Assembly: GCF_027286325.1 (NCBI RefSeq)
Contig: NZ_CP114588.1
Span: 1,054,001 to 1,118,000 of the forward strand
Source of the DNA: Salinivibrio kushneri
GTDB taxonomy: Bacteria; Pseudomonadota; Gammaproteobacteria; Enterobacterales; Vibrionaceae
DNA: 64,000 nt
Direction: 5' to 3'
Position numbers and translations under genes: made by a program. Each line of letters opens with the position of its first letter. Position 1 is the stretch's first letter. Below the pieces are notes generated by a model that was not told the DNA's origin, did no database searches, and worked only from the letters and a program-made list of their open reading frames with translations. Below, in pieces: positions 50,399-58,819 of the stretch.

Positions 50399-50923
50399 AT
50401 GATCACGCTCGAGCCCTACCACTTAGTCGATGCCAGCTTTTCTCCTTGGCGTCCCATTTACTTAGACGTTGCCCAAGCCCTGTCTGATCATATCTCCACA
50501 CCTCATATTGAGGTACTGCATTTTGGCTCCACGTCAGCGAAAGTAGGAGGCAAGGGGATTATTGATTTATCCATTCTCTATCGTCCTGGCGAGCGCGATG
50601 ATGCTGTCACTCACCTCTATGCACTAGGCTTCCAAGATCAGCACAGCAAGCAGCCATTTCCGGCACACCGCCCTCGTAAAGATGCCTCTGTAATTTATCA
50701 AGGTGAGCGTTTTCTGGTGCACGCCCACGTGATTGAAAAAGATAGTGATGAGCATCATCGCCAAATTGCGTACAAACAGTATCTACTCGATAACCCTGAT
50801 GTGCGCGCTGAGTACGAAGAAAAAAAGCGCACTATTTTAAAAGCAGGCGTTAACGAGCAAGACAGCTACGTAAAACATAAAGCGCCGTTTGTGAAAGCGA
50901 TTCTCAACGACATCGGCGAGTGA
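50399..50923 (+). CDS. GrpB/UPF0157-family protein
   Basis: 174 residues of the GrpB family, a nucleotidyltransferase-like fold. Conserved parts are IEVLHFGSTSAKVGGKGIID with the GSTSxxGxxxxxD motif of this superfamily, then PFPAHRPRKDASVI and HAHVIEKDSDEHHRQIAYKQ with YLLDNPDVRAEYEEKK. Probably a standalone gene. Cellular role not known. Confidence 0.9.
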   Translation: MITLEPYHLVDASFSPWRPIYLDVAQALSDHISTPHIEVLHFGSTSAKVGGKGIIDLSILYRPGERDDAVTHLYALGFQDQHSKQPFPAHRPRKDASVIYQGERFLVHAHVIEKDSDEHHRQIAYKQYLLDNPDVRAEYEEKKRTILKAGVNEQDSYVKHKAPFVKAILNDIGE

Positions 50924-51094
50924 ATTTACGCTCAACGTTCTTCTCTTACCCTTTTCCACACGTCACTCGACTTTAGTCGTATAAAGGGATGTCACTCAAG
51001 TGCATACGCTATGGTTAGTCTATAGTACTAAAGTAGGCACGAGGTGGTGAACCTTGAGGCATTTGCTTTTCCAGAGGGCGAAGAGGGTCCGTGA

Positions 51095-52300
51095 GTGAGT
51101 GACTTCCAACAGGGAATACTGGTTGTTGATGATCAGAAAGTGGTTCGGCATACCCTATTTTTATGTCTTCAAAACCTTGGTTTTACAAATGTTTATCAGG
51201 CTGAGAACGGACGCGAAGCGAAAAAACTCCTAAACACTCACTCGATTCAATGCGTATTTTGCGATCTCAATATGCCCATTGAAGATGGGTTTGAGGTGCT
51301 TAAGTTTCTAGATACACAAGCCTATCAAGGCGCCATCGTATTAATGAGTGGTGAGGAAGAGGAAGTGCTGGCCTCAACCGCCAATTTGGCGCGTCTTTAT
51401 CAACTGAATATTATCGAATGTGTGGCTAAGCCGCTTTCATTTGCAACAGTGAAACGACTGCTGGCCGCCAGTGAACGGGTACTAGACATAGAGGCTAACC
51501 ATGCGCCGCATGCACTACCACCGCTCACCGCCAAGTTATTAAAAGGATACATAGACAAAGGCGGGTTAAGGGCTTTTTTCCAGCCGCAAATTTCTTTGTC
51601 ATCAGGCCGCCTCAAAGGGTTTGAGGTGTTGGCACGGTTGTTCAAGCCTGATGAAAGCATGGTTTTTCCTGACCTGTTTATCCCCACCGCAGAAAAGCAT
51701 ATCGAGAGCATAACCGATCTGACCAAGCGTGTTATTGAGTGCGCGTACCAAGATATCAATCAACATGGGCAAGATATCGCCACTTTATCATTTGCCTTTA
51801 ATATATCAGCCAAAGTCTTGGAGGTGCCGAATTTTCCACAGTGGTTACAAGCGACGACCGCCAAGTATCAATTGCGTCCAGAACAGGTTATCTGTGAGCT
51901 AACAGAGACAGCTTTTACCACTGATCAAGCGACCATCGATACCCAAATGCTGCGTTTAAAAATGATGAAGTTTAAATTATCTATCGATGATTTTGGCACA
52001 GGCTATTCGTCTATTGCCCAGCTGCATTCGATTCCTTTTGATGAGCTGAAAGTGGACAAGCGCTTTGTGCTCGATTGTTTATCGAATACTAAATCTGCGG
52101 CTGTGGTGGAGCAAAGTATCCAACTCGCAAAAGCAATGGGGGTAAACGTGGTGGCGGAGGGGATTGAGAATCAAGAGGTGTGTGACTTTGTTAAAGCACT
52201 GGGATGTGACATTGGGCAAGGCTACTTCTACGCCAAACCAGAACCATTGAGTGTATTTGATTGGCGTTCAGTCAGTATTCAGCGTGGGAATCGTGAATGA
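51095..52300 (+). CDS. Response regulator with EAL domain (c-di-GMP phosphodiesterase)
   Basis: 401 residues. REC domain (about 8-125): acidic pocket VVDDQKVV, phospho-acceptor D57 in VFCDLNMPIEDGFEVL, Lys in ECVAKPLSF. EAL domain (about 155-395): the EAL triplet reads EVL in GFEVLARL, with the other catalytic and metal residues present: NISAK, CELTETA, SIDDFGTGYSS, LKVDKRFV, AEGIEN and IGQGYFYAKP. So it should hydrolyse c-di-GMP when phosphorylated. Start is GTG 51095. The hybrid kinase gene overlaps its 3' end by four bases, so the two are co-expressed and D57 is the likely output site. Confidence 0.94.
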   Translation: MSDFQQGILVVDDQKVVRHTLFLCLQNLGFTNVYQAENGREAKKLLNTHSIQCVFCDLNMPIEDGFEVLKFLDTQAYQGAIVLMSGEEEEVLASTANLARLYQLNIIECVAKPLSFATVKRLLAASERVLDIEANHAPHALPPLTAKLLKGYIDKGGLRAFFQPQISLSSGRLKGFEVLARLFKPDESMVFPDLFIPTAEKHIESITDLTKRVIECAYQDINQHGQDIATLSFAFNISAKVLEVPNFPQWLQATTAKYQLRPEQVICELTETAFTTDQATIDTQMLRLKMMKFKLSIDDFGTGYSSIAQLHSIPFDELKVDKRFVLDCLSNTKSAAVVEQSIQLAKAMGVNVVAEGIENQEVCDFVKALGCDIGQGYFYAKPEPLSVFDWRSVSIQRGNRE

Positions 52301-55300
52301 AGTTCTCTGTGAAATTACCTATTATTTTGCTGATGCTGGGCGGTTTAATGTTGGCATCTGTTACTGTGGTCTCTTGGAAAGGCCGTGATCTTCTTCAAGA
52401 AAGTATACTGACCAATATCGAGCGTGACGCGGCGCTACTGATTCGATTGATTGAAAGGAATCTTTTTGAAAGGTATCACGATGCACGCGCGTTTCCTTTG
52501 TCTCTAGGGAGTATTGAATCAGATAGTCTGAGTAACCGCCAAGTAAATGACAATACGGTAAGAAATCTTAACGAGTTAATCGCTAATTACAAAGTCTATC
52601 GTCGCATTGCGATAGTCAGTATGGAGGGCGAATTACTGGCGATAAATAATCAAAATAAGCATGGTAAATCGCTCGCGCCTCTTGACCTTTCCCAAGCACA
52701 AATTATGAACAGTGTTTGGTTTAATGAGATCCTTAACGGCCAAACGCTAGACCCTGAGCAACCGAATAGTACGTATGTTACTGGGCCAGAGCGCTTTATT
52801 TTCGGCTCCAATGCTACCTCCTACGACATGATTTTTGCGTCTGTGATCCGTAATACCGCTAACCGCGCTGTCGGTATATGGGTCAATGTGGTCGATTTTT
52901 CTACCGTCGAGTCCATTGTGGCCGAAAGCTACGACTTACTCGCTAAGCGCGGGCTAGTCAGTGCGGAATTAACCCTATTAGACCGCCACGGTCGTATTAT
53001 CGTTGATTATGATCCCGTAGGGCAAAATGAGGCAACGTATCAAAGGGACTTTCAAGTTCTGGGTAAATTAAACTTGGCGACGAATGGTGTCGAAGGGGCG
53101 AGATTAGCCGTAGCAGGATTAACGGGATCAAACATCTCAACACACTATCGAAAACAAGTGGATCAGGTCACAGGATTTGCCCACACCGAAGGGGCGTATG
53201 ATTATCCAGGATTGGGTTGGTCAGCGATGATCCGCGTCGAAGTTGGAGAGGCGCTGCTTGCGCCCAATACCCTGTATAAAAATTCTTTTATCATGACTGC
53301 CACGCTGCTGTCGTTGATTGTACTGCTTGCTTTTTATGTATCACGGCAAGTTTTCAAACCTTTAGGGCAGCTAAGCACCGCGGTGCGAAAATTGGCGCGG
53401 GGCGAGCATAACTTTTCCCTACCGCAGCGAGACCGAGGCGATGAAGTTGGGATCATGGCCAGTGAACTGCTCAAACTGCGAGATATTGTGAGCGAGCGAG
53501 AAAGCTTAATCAGAGAAACTGAAGAGCAGCGCTTCCAGTTGGATATTCAAAGTCGTGCTATCGAAGCGACGGCAACAGGCATCATTGTCTCTGATGTTAG
53601 GCTTGCAGACTATCCCATTATTTATGCCAATAAAGCGTTTGAGACCTTAACAGGCTACAGCTCGAAAGAAGTGGTAGGAAAAAACTGCCGATTTTTACAA
53701 GCCGATGATCGTGATCAGCCAGAGTTTGAACGCCTCCGGTATGCCCTTAAAAACGCCTTATCTTGTTCTGTAGTGGTGCGCAATTATAAAAAAGACGGCA
53801 CGCTTTTTTATAATAATCTACGCCTCGATCCTATTTTTGATGATGCGGGTGCGTTGACCCATTACATCGGGATGCAGTCGGATATTACGGAGTTTAAGCA
53901 GGTAGACGATGAGGCTAAATTTAAACTCGAACAAGAAATACAACGCCGAACCCAAGACTTACAAGAATCCGAAGGGCGTTTGAGGACGGTGTTTGACACC
54001 GCACTTGATGGCATGGTGGTGATCGACACGCAAGGTAATATTCTCGAAGTTAACCGTTCGTTGGAGCTTATCTTTGGGCGCATTCGCGAAGAGCTGGTGG
54101 GAGAAAATGTTTCGATCTTGATGCCAGACAAGTATAAAGCCGATCACGATGGGTTTATAAGTCAATATCAGTTAACAGGGAGTAAAAAGCTAATTGGTAC
54201 ACCACGAAAACTGCAGGGTATGCATAAATCTGGGCGTGAATTCCCCATTGAGGTATCCGTTGGCGAAACCTGGTTTGGGGATACCCAGGGGTTTGTCGGT
54301 GTGATTAAAGATATCACAGTTGAAGAAGATGTTAAGCAGCGAGAGCGACGGCTTCAAGATGCGTTAAAAGAAAGAGAAGTGATTTATCGAACTGCTTTTG
54401 ATCAGGCAGCAGTGGGGATATGTCGTGTTGACCTAGAGGGAAACTTTATTGAGGTCAATGACAGAATGAGTGAAATACTGGGCTATAGCCAAGAGGCGCT
54501 GCTACAGCTTAGTTACCAGGACATTACCCACCCAGACCACCTTGCAGCCAGTCATGCACAAGTCGCGCAACTCACCATAGGGGAAAGCCGCTCGTTTTCT
54601 ATGGACAAGCAATATATCACCCAGGGCGGTGAAGCCTTATGGGCTACGGTATCGGTGTCTACTGTGATGGATGAAGACGGCTCGCCACGGTATTTTATTG
54701 CAGCGTTGGAAGATATTAGCCAGCGCAAAGCGATAGAAGGCGAGCTGCTCTCAGCAAAAAGGGCGCGAGATGAGCTGCTTAGAGGCATGCAGTTAGCCTC
54801 TGATGCAGGAGGTATCTGCAATTGGTCTATGGACGTAAAGACAGGGGAGCTTAAGTGGGACGAAAATATGTATCGTCTTTACGGACTGTCGCCTGAATCG
54901 CCGGTTAATTATGAGGTCTGGAAGTCGTGTATTCATCCCGACGATCGCCAAAAAGCGATTGAAGAAGTGGAAGCGGCATTGAATGAAAGCAATGTCTTCA
55001 ACTCGGAGTTTCGGATACTTCACCCTGAGACTCACAAAGTCCGATGGATAAAAGCGGCAGCCAATGTTGTGAAAGATGAGCAAGTGGGCAGGGAAGTTCT
55101 ATTTGGCATCAACCTAGACATTACGCATGATCGACAGACACAAGCCAAGCTAGAGAAGGAATCAGTGATGGCGAGAAATGCCAATGAGGCAAAGTCTCGC
55201 TTCTTAGCCACCATGAGCCATGAAATTAGAACACCCATGAATGGTGTCATTGGCATGGTGGATTTATTAAAAGAAACGCCTCTGGAGCCAGAGCAATCTA

Positions 55301-57081
55301 AAATGGTCTCGACGATTCGAGACTCTTCTTTCTCATTGCTTGAGATAATCAACGATATTCTTGATTTTTCCAAAATCGAATCAGGACAAATGGAGTTGGA
55401 CCCGACTGACGTTAATTTGCTCGACTTAATTGAGAAAACCTTGGACGCACTATGGGTGAGTGCTGATCAAAAAGGCGTCGAACTCTTTTTCTCACATGAC
55501 TACGCCACCCCTGACTTTATATGGGTAGACCCGGTGCGAGTGCGCCAAATTCTTCTTAATTTGCTGGGTAACGCCATTAAGTTCACCAGCAAAGAAACAG
55601 AGGGAGGGCATGTCTTTGTCAAAACAACATATAGCCATGACAGTCAGATGCTCACGTTAAGTATCCGAGATACCGGCGTTGGCATGACGCACGAACAGAT
55701 GGATAAACTGTTCAAACCCTTTACGCAGGCGGATAGTTCCACCACGCGGCGATACGGAGGGACGGGCCTAGGACTGAGTATCTCCAAGTCATTTGTCGAT
55801 ATGATGGGTGGGGAAATTCGGGTCGAGAGTGAGTTTGGTAAAGGCAGTGAGTTTATAGTCCAAGTACCTGCGCCCAGTAGCGCCAAAACCCATGAAACCA
55901 ATCGACGTTATCCGTTTTCTGCGTTTTCTTTTGTTTTATTTATCGACCATGAACCGCTTGAGAATACCTGTATAGCATTGCTTGAAAGCTTACACCCCCG
56001 TGAGATTCTGGATGCAAACGTCACGGTGCCAGCTAACTGGAACCCGGATACCATGATTGCGGTTACAACAGATGAAAGTATTTTGGAAAGACATCAAGGC
56101 ATGCGTTGCCTGTTGCTTGGAGATGATTTAGCTGGACATGACACCTATAAATATCCAGGACCTTATCGGTTAAACCGATATCCCCTTAAACCCAGTGAAT
56201 TTGTTCTGGGGGCTGCAGTGATGTGCGGGCTTGAGAGTCCGGATGTTGATTGGAATGAAGCGGTAAATGGCGATGTCTTGGCCTATAGCAGTCAATTAGA
56301 TGCACAAATGTGTGGCACTATTTTATGCGCAGAAGATCAGCCAACCAACCAGCTCGTTCTCGCCAAGCAGCTAAAACAGCTTGGTTACCAATTTGAAATG
56401 ACATCGGATGGCAAAGAGGCACTTGAGAAATGGCACCAAGGAGAGTACGCAATGCTCTTAACGGACTGCCATATGCCCGAAATGGATGGCTTTGAATTAG
56501 CGGCTGAGATAAGACGACTAGAAGCTGAAGAAAATCGCGAGCGTACGTTAATTATTGCCATCACCGCTAATGCACTTGTGGGAGAAGCGGATCACTGCTT
56601 GCAATCGGGGATGGATGACTATATTTCCAAACCTGTTGAGCTTCAGACGCTTAAACGCGTACTGGCATTACGCCTTAGAGGGCGAGCGTTGAGAAAGGGC
56701 GAACCCGCAGTGGCTGAGACCAGTGAAGATGTCTCTCATACGGAGCCGCTCATCGATGATAGTCAGCTTGAGAAAGTCATTGGCAGCTCAGATCAGGAAA
56801 TGAAGCGCGCCATATTGTCCATGTTCTGGGAGGGTGTGTCGGCGGATGTCAATGCGCTTGAACAGGCTATTGTAGGGGCCGACGATGACAAAGTAAGAGC
56901 GATTGCACATGGAGCAAAGGGTGCATCTGCATCAAGTGGGGCGATGCGTTTGAGCGAGCTATTCCGAGTCATCGAAAACAGCAGTCACGACCTTGAACAA
57001 GTAAGAGCTGTGTTTACCGAAATAAGTGCAATGATGACCGCAATTGAAACCGATCTGCGGGAAGAAAAAATCATTCAATGA
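52297..57081 (+). CDS. LOV- and PAS-containing hybrid sensor histidine kinase (1594 aa)
   Basis: Domains in order: TM1 (about 7-27), periplasmic dCache-like sensor (30-325), TM2 (328-348), HAMP (350-400), LOV domain (about 415-540), PAS resembling FixL (560-690), PAS (695-815), PAS_3 (830-945), HisKA with H975 in [14 protein letters not shown], HATPase ([26 protein letters not shown]), a degenerate receiver (about 1205-1330), a receiver with D1390 ([12 protein letters not shown]) and an Hpt domain with H1538 ([10 protein letters not shown]). The LOV part has GKNCRFLQ (Cys464) plus the other flavin-contact residues ([19 protein letters not shown]), so FMN binding and blue-light adduct formation are expected. 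Overlaps the upstream REC-EAL gene. Confidence 0.93.
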
Positions 57082-57097
57082 ATGTAAGAGGCGCGAT

Positions 57098-58021
57098 GTG
57101 ATACATATCAACACGCAAGACCAAATTCCTTTTGAACACTTTGAAAAAGCGAGTCGCGATACACTCAAATACTTAAATAAAAAGTTTGGTTACGGTACGT
57201 GGATGATGACTCGCAAGCATGAAAATCAATGGGTCATCTTACAAGTAGAAGGTAACAAATACGGTATTGATGAATTGACCACACTCAGGTGGAGCGATTC
57301 AATGTGCAGCCGTATGGTGCAGGGCGAAGGGCCGCGTTGGGCGCCTGACGTTGACAGTGTTCCCGCATATGTGAATGCGCCAATTTACCACGCCGAGACT
57401 ATTAAGTCGTACATAGGGATCCCCGTTTGCTATTCGGATGGTAACTTATTTGGCACCTTGTGTGCGATAGATACAGAACCAGTCGATCGTATTCCGCCTG
57501 ATGGCTTAGAAACCATCGAACTTGTCTCAAAATTACTTTCAACGCTATTACAGCTTGAGCTGCAAAATATCGATTTGTCGCGAAAACAAATGAGTTTTTT
57601 ACCCTCTCAATTAAAAGACCATGAAACGGGTTTTCTTAATCGATTAGGTTGGTCTTTATATTTAGAAAAAGAAGAAAGCAATATCCGCTCGGTGGGTACA
57701 CCCGTGCATGTGGTGGCTATTGATGTTTCTCAGCACAATCAGTCAGCGCACTTAAAGGATACGGCAATGATCACCCTGTTTGTGTCGATTCTCAATGGTG
57801 CCTTACATGACGGTGGCTATATCGCTCGATTGGGGGAAGATATTTACACCATGCTGTGTGCCAATAAAACCGAGGAGCAAATGGCCGTGATGGTTGAACG
57901 TCTTGCTAACGAATTGAGTGAGGCTAAGATCCCTGTCGTTATTGGCTTCAAAAAACATGATTATGGTGATAACTTGGATGTCACTGTGATTGCTGCCATA
58001 AAAAGTGTCCGGCAATCATAA
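57098..58021 (+). CDS. GAF protein with degenerate GGDEF domain
   Basis: 307 residues. N-terminal GAF domain (about 15-160): SDSMCSRMVQGEGPRWAPDV and SYIGIPVCYSDGNLFGTLCA with IDTEPV are typical. The C-terminal domain (about 180-305) has the GGDEF fold outline (HETGFLNRLGWSLYLEKE; VHVVAIDVSQHN) but the active-site motif reads RLGEDIYTML instead of GGDEF, so it should not make c-di-GMP and may bind or sense it, or act as an adaptor. GTG 57098 follows AAGAGG; an ATG at 57044 lies inside the kinase gene and is rejected. Third gene of the light-sensing cluster. Confidence 0.85.
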   Translation: MIHINTQDQIPFEHFEKASRDTLKYLNKKFGYGTWMMTRKHENQWVILQVEGNKYGIDELTTLRWSDSMCSRMVQGEGPRWAPDVDSVPAYVNAPIYHAETIKSYIGIPVCYSDGNLFGTLCAIDTEPVDRIPPDGLETIELVSKLLSTLLQLELQNIDLSRKQMSFLPSQLKDHETGFLNRLGWSLYLEKEESNIRSVGTPVHVVAIDVSQHNQSAHLKDTAMITLFVSILNGALHDGGYIARLGEDIYTMLCANKTEEQMAVMVERLANELSEAKIPVVIGFKKHDYGDNLDVTVIAAIKSVRQS

Positions 58022-58084
58022 ACATAGTATGTTCAGCCCAGTGCCGTTGGTCGAGCAGGAGTATCACCCGAGACAGGAAACGTC

Positions 58085-58819
58085 ATGCAACGTGAGCTAA
58101 CACAGACGAAACCTCGACCCTCCAAACCTTGTATGGTGTGCCAATTTGTCAAAAGTGATATGAGCCGTGCAGTGCAAAGAGTCAAGCGGACCATGACACG
58201 TACATCCGTGCCTTATGTTTCACCGGCGGATTATACAGTCCCCGATAGCCAAGCCTGTCAGCAGGCGTTAGCGCTGGTTAAACAATTTAGCCCTGAATTT
58301 TTAGTCAATCACTCCTTACGTAGCTACGCGTTTGGCTTGGCGATGAGCCACAAAGTGAAGCAAGACGTTGATAAAGAAGTCTTCTTTGTTGGCGCAATCT
58401 TGCATGATATTGGCTTAACCGATTATGTTGCTCAACAAGACACCTTTGAAATCGAAGGCGCCATCGCTGCACAAGCGTTTGCAATGGCGAAGGGTTTGTC
58501 GGCGGAACAGGCCGATCTCATTCATGAAATGGTGGCATTACATAATTCGGTGGGTGTGGCGCATCAATGTGACCCAGAAATTGCATTGCTACACTTTGGT
58601 GCGGGCGCAGATGTGGCGGGGCTTTGGATCGAAGACATCCATAAAAAGACGCTGCACGAAGTGCTTGAAGCCTATCACGATCAAGGATGTCAGGCCGGAA
58701 TGATCCAGCTCATCCAAGATCAAGTCACGCGCAAACCACATAGCTACATGTCGACCATGGTGGAATTAGGGTTCCTCAAAAAAGTGGCGAAACACCAATT
58801 TGCCTATAAACCGACGTGA
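58085..58819 (+). CDS. HD-domain phosphohydrolase-like protein
   Basis: 244 residues. HD-superfamily metal site: His in NHSLRSYAFGLAMSH (about residue 78), the HD pair in ILHDIGLTDYV (about 107) and later His in MVALHNSVGVAHQCD. The layout (FLVNHSLRSYAFG ... HDIGL) resembles the cyanamide-hydratase-like HD group rather than the HD-GYP phosphodiesterases, because no GYP follows. A Cys pair CMVC sits near the N-terminus. It lies 63 bases behind the light-sensing operon in the same direction, but a functional link is not shown. Substrate unknown. Confidence 0.85.
   Translation: MQRELTQTKPRPSKPCMVCQFVKSDMSRAVQRVKRTMTRTSVPYVSPADYTVPDSQACQQALALVKQFSPEFLVNHSLRSYAFGLAMSHKVKQDVDKEVFFVGAILHDIGLTDYVAQQDTFEIEGAIAAQAFAMAKGLSAEQADLIHEMVALHNSVGVAHQCDPEIALLHFGAGADVAGLWIEDIHKKTLHEVLEAYHDQGCQAGMIQLIQDQVTRKPHSYMSTMVELGFLKKVAKHQFAYKPT

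Follow-up and report, generated by a model that had tools for sequence, protein, structure and literature searches.

Can a non-photosynthetic vibrio couple blue light to the breakdown of the second messenger cyclic dimeric guanosine monophosphate (c-di-GMP) through a kinase in its membrane? The question is raised by a three-gene operon of Salinivibrio kushneri, located on the forward strand at positions 51095–58021 of a 64,000-nucleotide stretch (the window) of contig 1 of the two-contig, 3.46-Mb genome, which encodes a response regulator with a receiver and an EAL domain (REC-EAL), a hybrid histidine kinase, and a protein with a GAF and a degenerate GGDEF domain. We consider it probable, at roughly seven in ten, that the kinase is a membrane blue-light photoreceptor that controls c-di-GMP breakdown by phosphorelay. 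According to this proposal, blue light would generate a flavin adduct at Cys464 of the kinase, and the resulting LOV signal, together with the periplasmic dCache-like input and three further PAS domains, would set the balance between kinase and phosphatase activities at H975; phosphate would then travel from H975 to D1390, H1538 and finally D57 of the co-encoded REC-EAL protein, the phosphorylation of which would change its phosphodiesterase activity, and the GAF/degenerate-GGDEF protein would probably act as a non-catalytic modulator. If true, the operon would offer a testable light wiring for biofilm and motility decisions in vibrios, consisting of a membrane photoreceptor, a phosphorelay and a phosphodiesterase.

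A LOV domain in a hybrid histidine kinase

The kinase gene (52297–57081; Pfam, NCBIfam) encodes 1594 residues in the order dCache-like sensor–HAMP–LOV–PAS–PAS–PAS–HisKA–HATPase–REC–Hpt. The first PAS domain, at residues 415–540 (53539–53916; Pfam PAS_9 at 437–532), carries the motif GKNCRFLQ at residues 461–468, in which the codon of the predicted flavin-adduct cysteine, Cys464, occupies 53686–53688. An earlier description of the locus, made from the letters alone (the sequence-only reading), had taken this segment for a LOV domain on the basis of the motif and of further flavin contacts by two asparagines and a glutamine, and profile searches agree with it. The segment matched the NCBIfam blue-light models with E-values of 6e-43 and 3e-37, with scores of 147 bits against the YtvA-family model and 128 bits against the blue-light kinase model, and its best matches in the PDB were LOV proteins (E 1.9e-32). 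The whole-protein cut-offs of NCBIfam were missed (NF052652, 174 bits against a cut-off of 250 for the whole kinase; NF052306, 128 against 450 for the LOV segment alone), which is the outcome expected of the same domain in a different architecture. All nine pocket residues tabulated (N463, C464, R465, L467, Q468, R481, N496, N506 and Q527), positions that we take to be flavin contacts, are present. Judged by these profiles, structures and residues, the first PAS domain is a canonical LOV domain, and the resemblance is not due to chance.

The nine pocket residues are identical in all 10 intact family members that were tabulated. The eleventh intact member, from the Salinivibrio draft genome G023, has the motif and was omitted from the residue table on account of its split kinase, which reads in two overlapping frames near residue 845 (locus L132, 8701–13484), through either a sequencing error or a broken gene. 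Comparison of the LOV domain with that of Salinivibrio sp. ES.052 yielded a nonsynonymous divergence (dN) of about 0.04 and a synonymous divergence (dS) of about 2, the latter saturated, which indicates strong purifying selection on the domain within Salinivibrio. No BLUF domain was found in the S. kushneri genome. A second cysteine of the LOV domain, at residue 490 (SCSVV), is invariant in the seven intact members of the alignment used; it is also present in nine of the 10 members that have lost Cys464, and the best PDB match, 7r5n, has a cysteine there too.

The proposed phosphorelay and the REC-EAL protein

The C-terminal part of the kinase contains the modules of a hybrid phosphorelay, identified with Pfam and, for the phosphorylatable residues, by alignment: HisKA at residues 965–1030 (55189–55386), with H975 in the motif MSHEIRTP; HATPase_c at 1078–1193 (55528–55875); a hybrid receiver at 1342–1455 (56320–56661), with D1390; and Hpt at 1506–1584 (56812–57048), with H1538. 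MSHEIRTP is found in 19 of the 19 complete kinases aligned, the twentieth row being the split kinase of G023. The kinase gene shares the four bases ATGA with the preceding REC-EAL gene (51095–52300), which confirms the overlap and the tight packing of the three genes as first described. The 401-amino-acid (aa) REC-EAL protein, a predicted c-di-GMP phosphodiesterase on the evidence of Pfam and of a match to RocR, consists of a receiver at residues 8–119 (51116–51451), with the phosphoacceptor D57, followed by an EAL domain at 153–382 (51551–52240) in which all eight catalytic positions are present. Its best PDB match, spanning the full length, is RocR (3sy8, E 1.1e-44), and it scored 231.5 bits to the PvrR equivalog NF052596, below the cut-off of 580; the domain order and the catalytic and receiver residues are those of the RocR/PvrR type.

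A search of 296 genomes identified a total of 23 relatives of the REC-EAL protein (E up to 1e-60). The catalytic residues E177, N236, E268, D298, D299, K319, E355 and Q375 are kept in all 23, and the phosphotransfer residues D12, D13, D57, S85 and K112 in 22, each of which is encoded near a hybrid kinase gene (15 in this operon, four in the 1.5-kb flanks, and three divergent within about 0.75 kb). The exception, a protein of genome G082 with 46% identity, has N, G, N, S and V at the five phosphotransfer positions and an intact EAL site; kinase, receiver and Hpt queries over 18.9 kb of G082 matched nothing except this REC-EAL itself and a further EAL protein, and the genome contains no homologue of the sensor. 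Because the intact receivers have kinases nearby and the decayed one has none, control of the phosphodiesterase by the kinase is supported; the decay in G082, although one case, looks as the loss of a cognate kinase should look. The sequence-only reading had proposed a light-driven relay from His through Asp and Hpt to REC-EAL, and this proposal is strengthened by conservation across the family and by the decayed orphan receiver, whereas flavin binding, photochemistry and phosphotransfer are steps that we infer. The S. kushneri genome has 22 EAL matches, 21 of them over the cut-off and the REC-EAL protein included, and the effect on the global c-di-GMP pool therefore need not be large.

Sighted and blinded kinases across the family

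A search of 329 genomes of the family with the sensor part of the kinase returned matches with E no higher than 1e-10 in 25 of them; three (G135, G006 and G080, E 1e-11 to 1e-13) were set aside as weak. The remaining 22 kinases comprise 11 with an intact GxNCRFLQ motif, here called sighted (S. kushneri, G009, G018, G023, G028, G115, G252, G163, G212, G179 and G143), 10 that have lost the cysteine, here called blinded (G230, G264, G275, G294, G259, G312, G173, G199, G005 and G253), and one from which the LOV domain is deleted (G026). In each blinded member at least two more pocket residues have gone along with the cysteine, and the replacement of the cysteine differs by branch (I, P, L, F or Y). 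Two further kinases, from Enterovibrio (L058 and L059), came from a search for related loci and were placed in the tree, outside the 22; read by eye, the first half of their LOV domain appears to be joined to the final part of a PAS domain that comes later in the chain.

A tree was constructed from kinase residues 850–1594 only, without the LOV columns, with 10 intact kinases (the split G023 kinase being excluded) and L071 as the outgroup. Grouping of the intact kinases as one clade, a group defined by the trait itself, was rejected by the approximately unbiased test (p-AU 1.75e-5), a result that hangs on G143 alone, the own fork of which is poorly supported (44/19), in a tree where several blinded branches are long. 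In a second tree, in which the LOV domains of the family were combined with two PAS domains and with 20 LOV or LOV-like domains from elsewhere in the Gammaproteobacteria, the intact and blinded members of the family form one group (96/96) with an unsure inner order, and by itself this tree, in its well-supported branches, is compatible with a single origin of the intact form. The non-clade result is most simply explained by repeated blinding. The kinase tree requires as few as two changes if regain is allowed; since the residue that replaces the cysteine differs between branches, we infer loss, about five times, rather than regain.

The 11 cysteine-less or deleted orthologues retain the kinase, and four of them a REC-EAL neighbour, which suggests that the chassis works on other inputs. 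This is one ground for supposing that the LOV domain is mainly a flavin redox or oxygen sensor, to which light is incidental, with the same relay to REC-EAL; another is that flavin photoreduction lets a cysteine-less LOV domain signal and that redox-active ancestors have been proposed, according to excerpts of PMC4682037. Selection on adduct chemistry would be expected to keep the cysteine and the other pocket residues together, as in the intact group, and to let them go together, as in the blinded members, and we regard a redox or oxygen sensor as unlikely; the alternatives weighed in this and the following paragraphs overlap, and their odds are therefore not mutually exclusive.

The REC-EAL gene adjoins the kinase gene in 11 of 11 sighted and four of 11 blinded or deleted cases. 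An open reading frame (ORF) resembling REC-EAL (25% identity; L059, 11392–12666) lies about 700 bp downstream of one Enterovibrio LOV-remnant kinase; it was not scored as an orthologue, and if it were counted, the blind kinases with a REC-EAL neighbour would number five. Of the 20 neighbour regions read, 11, none from Salinivibrio, encode a further protein of 362–390 residues with a C-terminal receiver, located after the kinase gene or after the third gene. Its gene adjoins that of 10 of 14 kinases in genus g12, to which named Vibrio belong, and of one kinase in g6. The protein consists of an N-terminal domain without assignment, a helical linker and the receiver (Pfam on three proteins, Foldseek on one), and in its low-confidence model (predicted local distance difference test, pLDDT, 62) the listed Foldseek matches cover the receiver. 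An hhalign comparison with three receiver sets gave no support for the N-terminal domain as a pseudo-receiver (probability at most 0.8%; true receiver sets against each other, 98.9% and 98.4%). Such a protein, which occurs even in two regions without REC-EAL (G230 and G264), might be the main partner of the kinase, leaving REC-EAL as a side branch; this arrangement seems quite unlikely in Salinivibrio, where in all eight genomes the listed matches to the extra protein are receiver domains only (best E per genome, 8e-18 to 2e-14), and it also sits poorly with a REC-EAL gene beside every sighted kinase.

In a distant blinded branch (G275, G294, G259 and G312; L143, L144, L145 and L197), the kinase is followed by a 245-aa receiver protein. 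The next ORF has PTS_EIIC-like and EAL domains in L144, with similar ORFs in G259 and G312; the equivalent stretch in G275 contains N's and reads as two frames.

The third protein (57098–58021, 307 aa) was described at first as a GAF/degenerate-GGDEF protein, and Pfam and alignment uphold this: the GAF domain scored 27.3 bits (cut-off 22.4) and the GGDEF domain 24.6 bits (cut-off 23.8), and the GGDEF motif is replaced in all eight homologues aligned. Synthesis of c-di-GMP is therefore not expected of the protein. In eight of the 24 genomes searched there is a homologue with E below 1e-100, in every case next to an intact LOV kinase; by group, eight of 11 sighted genomes have one, as against none of the nine blind or deleted genomes searched and none of four without the kinase; G259 and G294 lay outside this search, and weaker matches in some genomes (E about 1e-9) are not counted. 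The association with sighted kinases probably reflects a single gain. Whether an ancestral vibrio possessed a light-to-c-di-GMP phosphorelay that was blinded about five times, with the kinase re-used and a GAF/pseudo-GGDEF modulator seen only with sighted kinases, we judge to be an even bet. If true, the family would provide a natural series for the loss of a photoreceptor or its conversion to a non-light sensor. The occurrence of the same kinase in sighted and blinded forms among these relatives makes it possible to ask, from natural alleles, what light contributes to a c-di-GMP circuit and to which input a blinded LOV kinase responds.

Several observations weigh against light control of REC-EAL by the kinase. 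The kinase is present in five of the eight Salinivibrio genomes and lacking in three; in two of the latter (G033 and G038) the flanking GrpB-like and LysR genes lie about 0.5 kb apart, and in the third (G043) the contig ends too early to show the locus. The association between an intact LOV domain and a REC-EAL neighbour (Fisher p 0.004) ignores descent, and a tree-based pair test of the same link, with two independent pairs, was not significant. The orphan-receiver argument rests on a single genome, and the Hpt domain, to judge from the neighbouring genes, could serve other receivers. Finally, in Anabaena sp. PCC 7120, removal of PAS2, an FMN (flavin mononucleotide)-binding domain of the kinase CdgK, did not alter cell size (53.6 versus 51.2 cubic micrometres) in the excerpted text of PMC9927289; a flavin-binding PAS domain in such a kinase therefore need not matter for the output measured. 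The PAS2 of CdgK, dispensable for cell size, the frequent LOV losses among relatives, and the three other PAS domains and dCache-like sensor of the Salinivibrio kinase would all suit a kinase of the usual multi-PAS kind whose LOV-like domain gives no light signal in this species, a reading that we hold to be very improbable in view of the strong purifying selection within Salinivibrio and the invariant pocket.

Known systems and further features of the locus

The proposed photoreceptor relay has partial precedents, which are compared here from excerpts of the papers cited. CdgK–CdgS of Anabaena likewise comprises a membrane-anchored multi-PAS hybrid kinase with a flavin-type PAS domain, which signals to a c-di-GMP response regulator by the same His-Asp-Hpt-Asp route; FMN binding is ascribed to PAS2 of the kinase, and a role of light is called unconfirmed (PMC9927289). 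CdgK differs in having CHASE, five PAS, GAF and two receivers, and its output, CdgS, is a GGDEF synthase, whereas Salinivibrio has a dCache-like sensor, a REC-EAL output for breakdown and overlapping genes in an operon, and Pfam detects a single receiver and neither CHASE nor GAF in its kinase. In Qipengyuania (Erythrobacter) flava, the LOV histidine kinase LOV-1477 acts on DGC-2902 via a receiver, under blue light in E. coli (PMC12172448, PMC10267684); there the output is REC-GGDEF (synthesis) and kinase and receiver are reported as separate proteins, whereas the Salinivibrio kinase is a membrane-spanning hybrid with Hpt and a REC-EAL output.

The pairing of a hybrid kinase containing REC and Hpt with a REC-EAL phosphodiesterase is known from ArrS/ArrR of Aeromonas veronii and RocS1/RocR of Pseudomonas aeruginosa (PMC11841396). 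For ArrS/ArrR, an interaction between Hpt and the REC of the REC-EAL enzyme, and inhibition of that enzyme by phosphorylation, are described (PMC11841396); phosphorylation may or may not inhibit in the same way in Salinivibrio, and a LOV domain may either activate its kinase or shut it off. The periplasmic part of the ArrS type has two PBP2-type domains, accompanied by one PAS, and the word LOV is absent from the PMC11841396 text searched; in the Salinivibrio kinase Pfam gives a weak dCache_1 match and no PBP2-type domain. Blue light is also linked to a c-di-GMP phosphodiesterase in SL2 (LOV-GGDEF-EAL) of Synechococcus elongatus, where photosensor and enzyme share one chain rather than being separate proteins as in Salinivibrio (PMC8846402). 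The same 2022 review, in its excerpted text, places light-to-c-di-GMP photosensors in the GGDEF/EAL chain or in short partner proteins (PMC8846402).

A sample of 369 genomes of the class gave 55 LOV matches outside S. kushneri, from which 20 gammaproteobacterial loci with LOV or LOV-like domains, chosen mostly for long frames, were picked by hand; 14 have EAL in cis, five are kinases and one is neither, and a REC-EAL neighbour was found for none of the five kinases, one of which lies on a 3.7-kb contig too short to show neighbours. Among the titles and abstract openings listed by searches of open-licence papers in PMC, none dealt with a Salinivibrio LOV protein or with a LOV kinase partnered by REC-EAL; the only paper to contain both LOV and REC-EAL by word start, PMC5932348, has no whole-word LOV. 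The sequence-only reading knew of no other instance of this exact combination. CdgK–CdgS and LOV-1477/DGC-2902 qualify that view, the design of a flavin-kinase-to-c-di-GMP relay being already known; the new part, within the literature searched, is the phosphodiesterase output.

The remaining parts of the kinase, a periplasmic sensor and three further PAS domains, along with the receiver and Hpt, are as the sequence-only reading had listed them. The membrane-anchored sensor (52297–53331) matched Pfam dCache_1 weakly (20.2 bits, cut-off 45), and its low-confidence model (pLDDT 60) has two long helices; the 50 Foldseek matches listed are mostly ligand-binding domains of chemoreceptors or sensor kinases, two of them with titles naming dCache or tandem Cache and the others taken to be such domains. 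This N-terminal part is probably a dCache sensor, as far as the model allows. It is followed by HAMP at residues 348–391 (53338–53469; 25.5 bits, cut-off 25) and, beyond the LOV domain, by PAS domains identified with Pfam at 561–673 (53977–54315), 701–811 (54397–54729) and 852–929 (54850–55083). Between HATPase and receiver, residues 1203–1335 (55903–56301) evolve fast, have no Pfam match and contain a conserved HPLKPSE-like motif; the hhalign comparison above gave no support for a receiver ancestry of this segment either (probability at most 0.8%).

A probable ribosome-binding site, GAAGAGGG, is predicted from sequence at 51080–51087 upstream of the REC-EAL gene. The ORF of the third gene opens at TTG 57044, within the kinase gene; the likely start is GTG 57098, since AAGAGG lies just upstream and the orthologues in L132 and L134 start with MIHI there, and the third gene would therefore begin 16 bases past the kinase stop. 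A scan of 50700–58200 for sigma-70 promoters gave 10 sites against 11.1 expected and was uninformative; 15 terminator-like sites were found in the same interval against 6.3 expected, all of them inside the genes of the operon, and were disregarded.

In other genera the surroundings of the kinase differ; its neighbours in G252 and G163, read by eye, are presumably his genes. The operon is followed in the window by a gene for an HD-domain protein (58085–58819), cyanamide hydratase-like and below the cut-off, which is also downstream in G018 and G023 and did not turn up in the parts of G009 and G028 that were read. The closest named relative is Salinivibrio sharmensis, with 95% identity in the kinase (L052). 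In S. proteolyticus (G018, locus L134, 6506–14292), identity to the window is 56% for REC-EAL and 72% for the kinase, compared with 87% for the third gene and 91% for the following HD gene, as if the REC-EAL/kinase pair had evolved fast or been exchanged.

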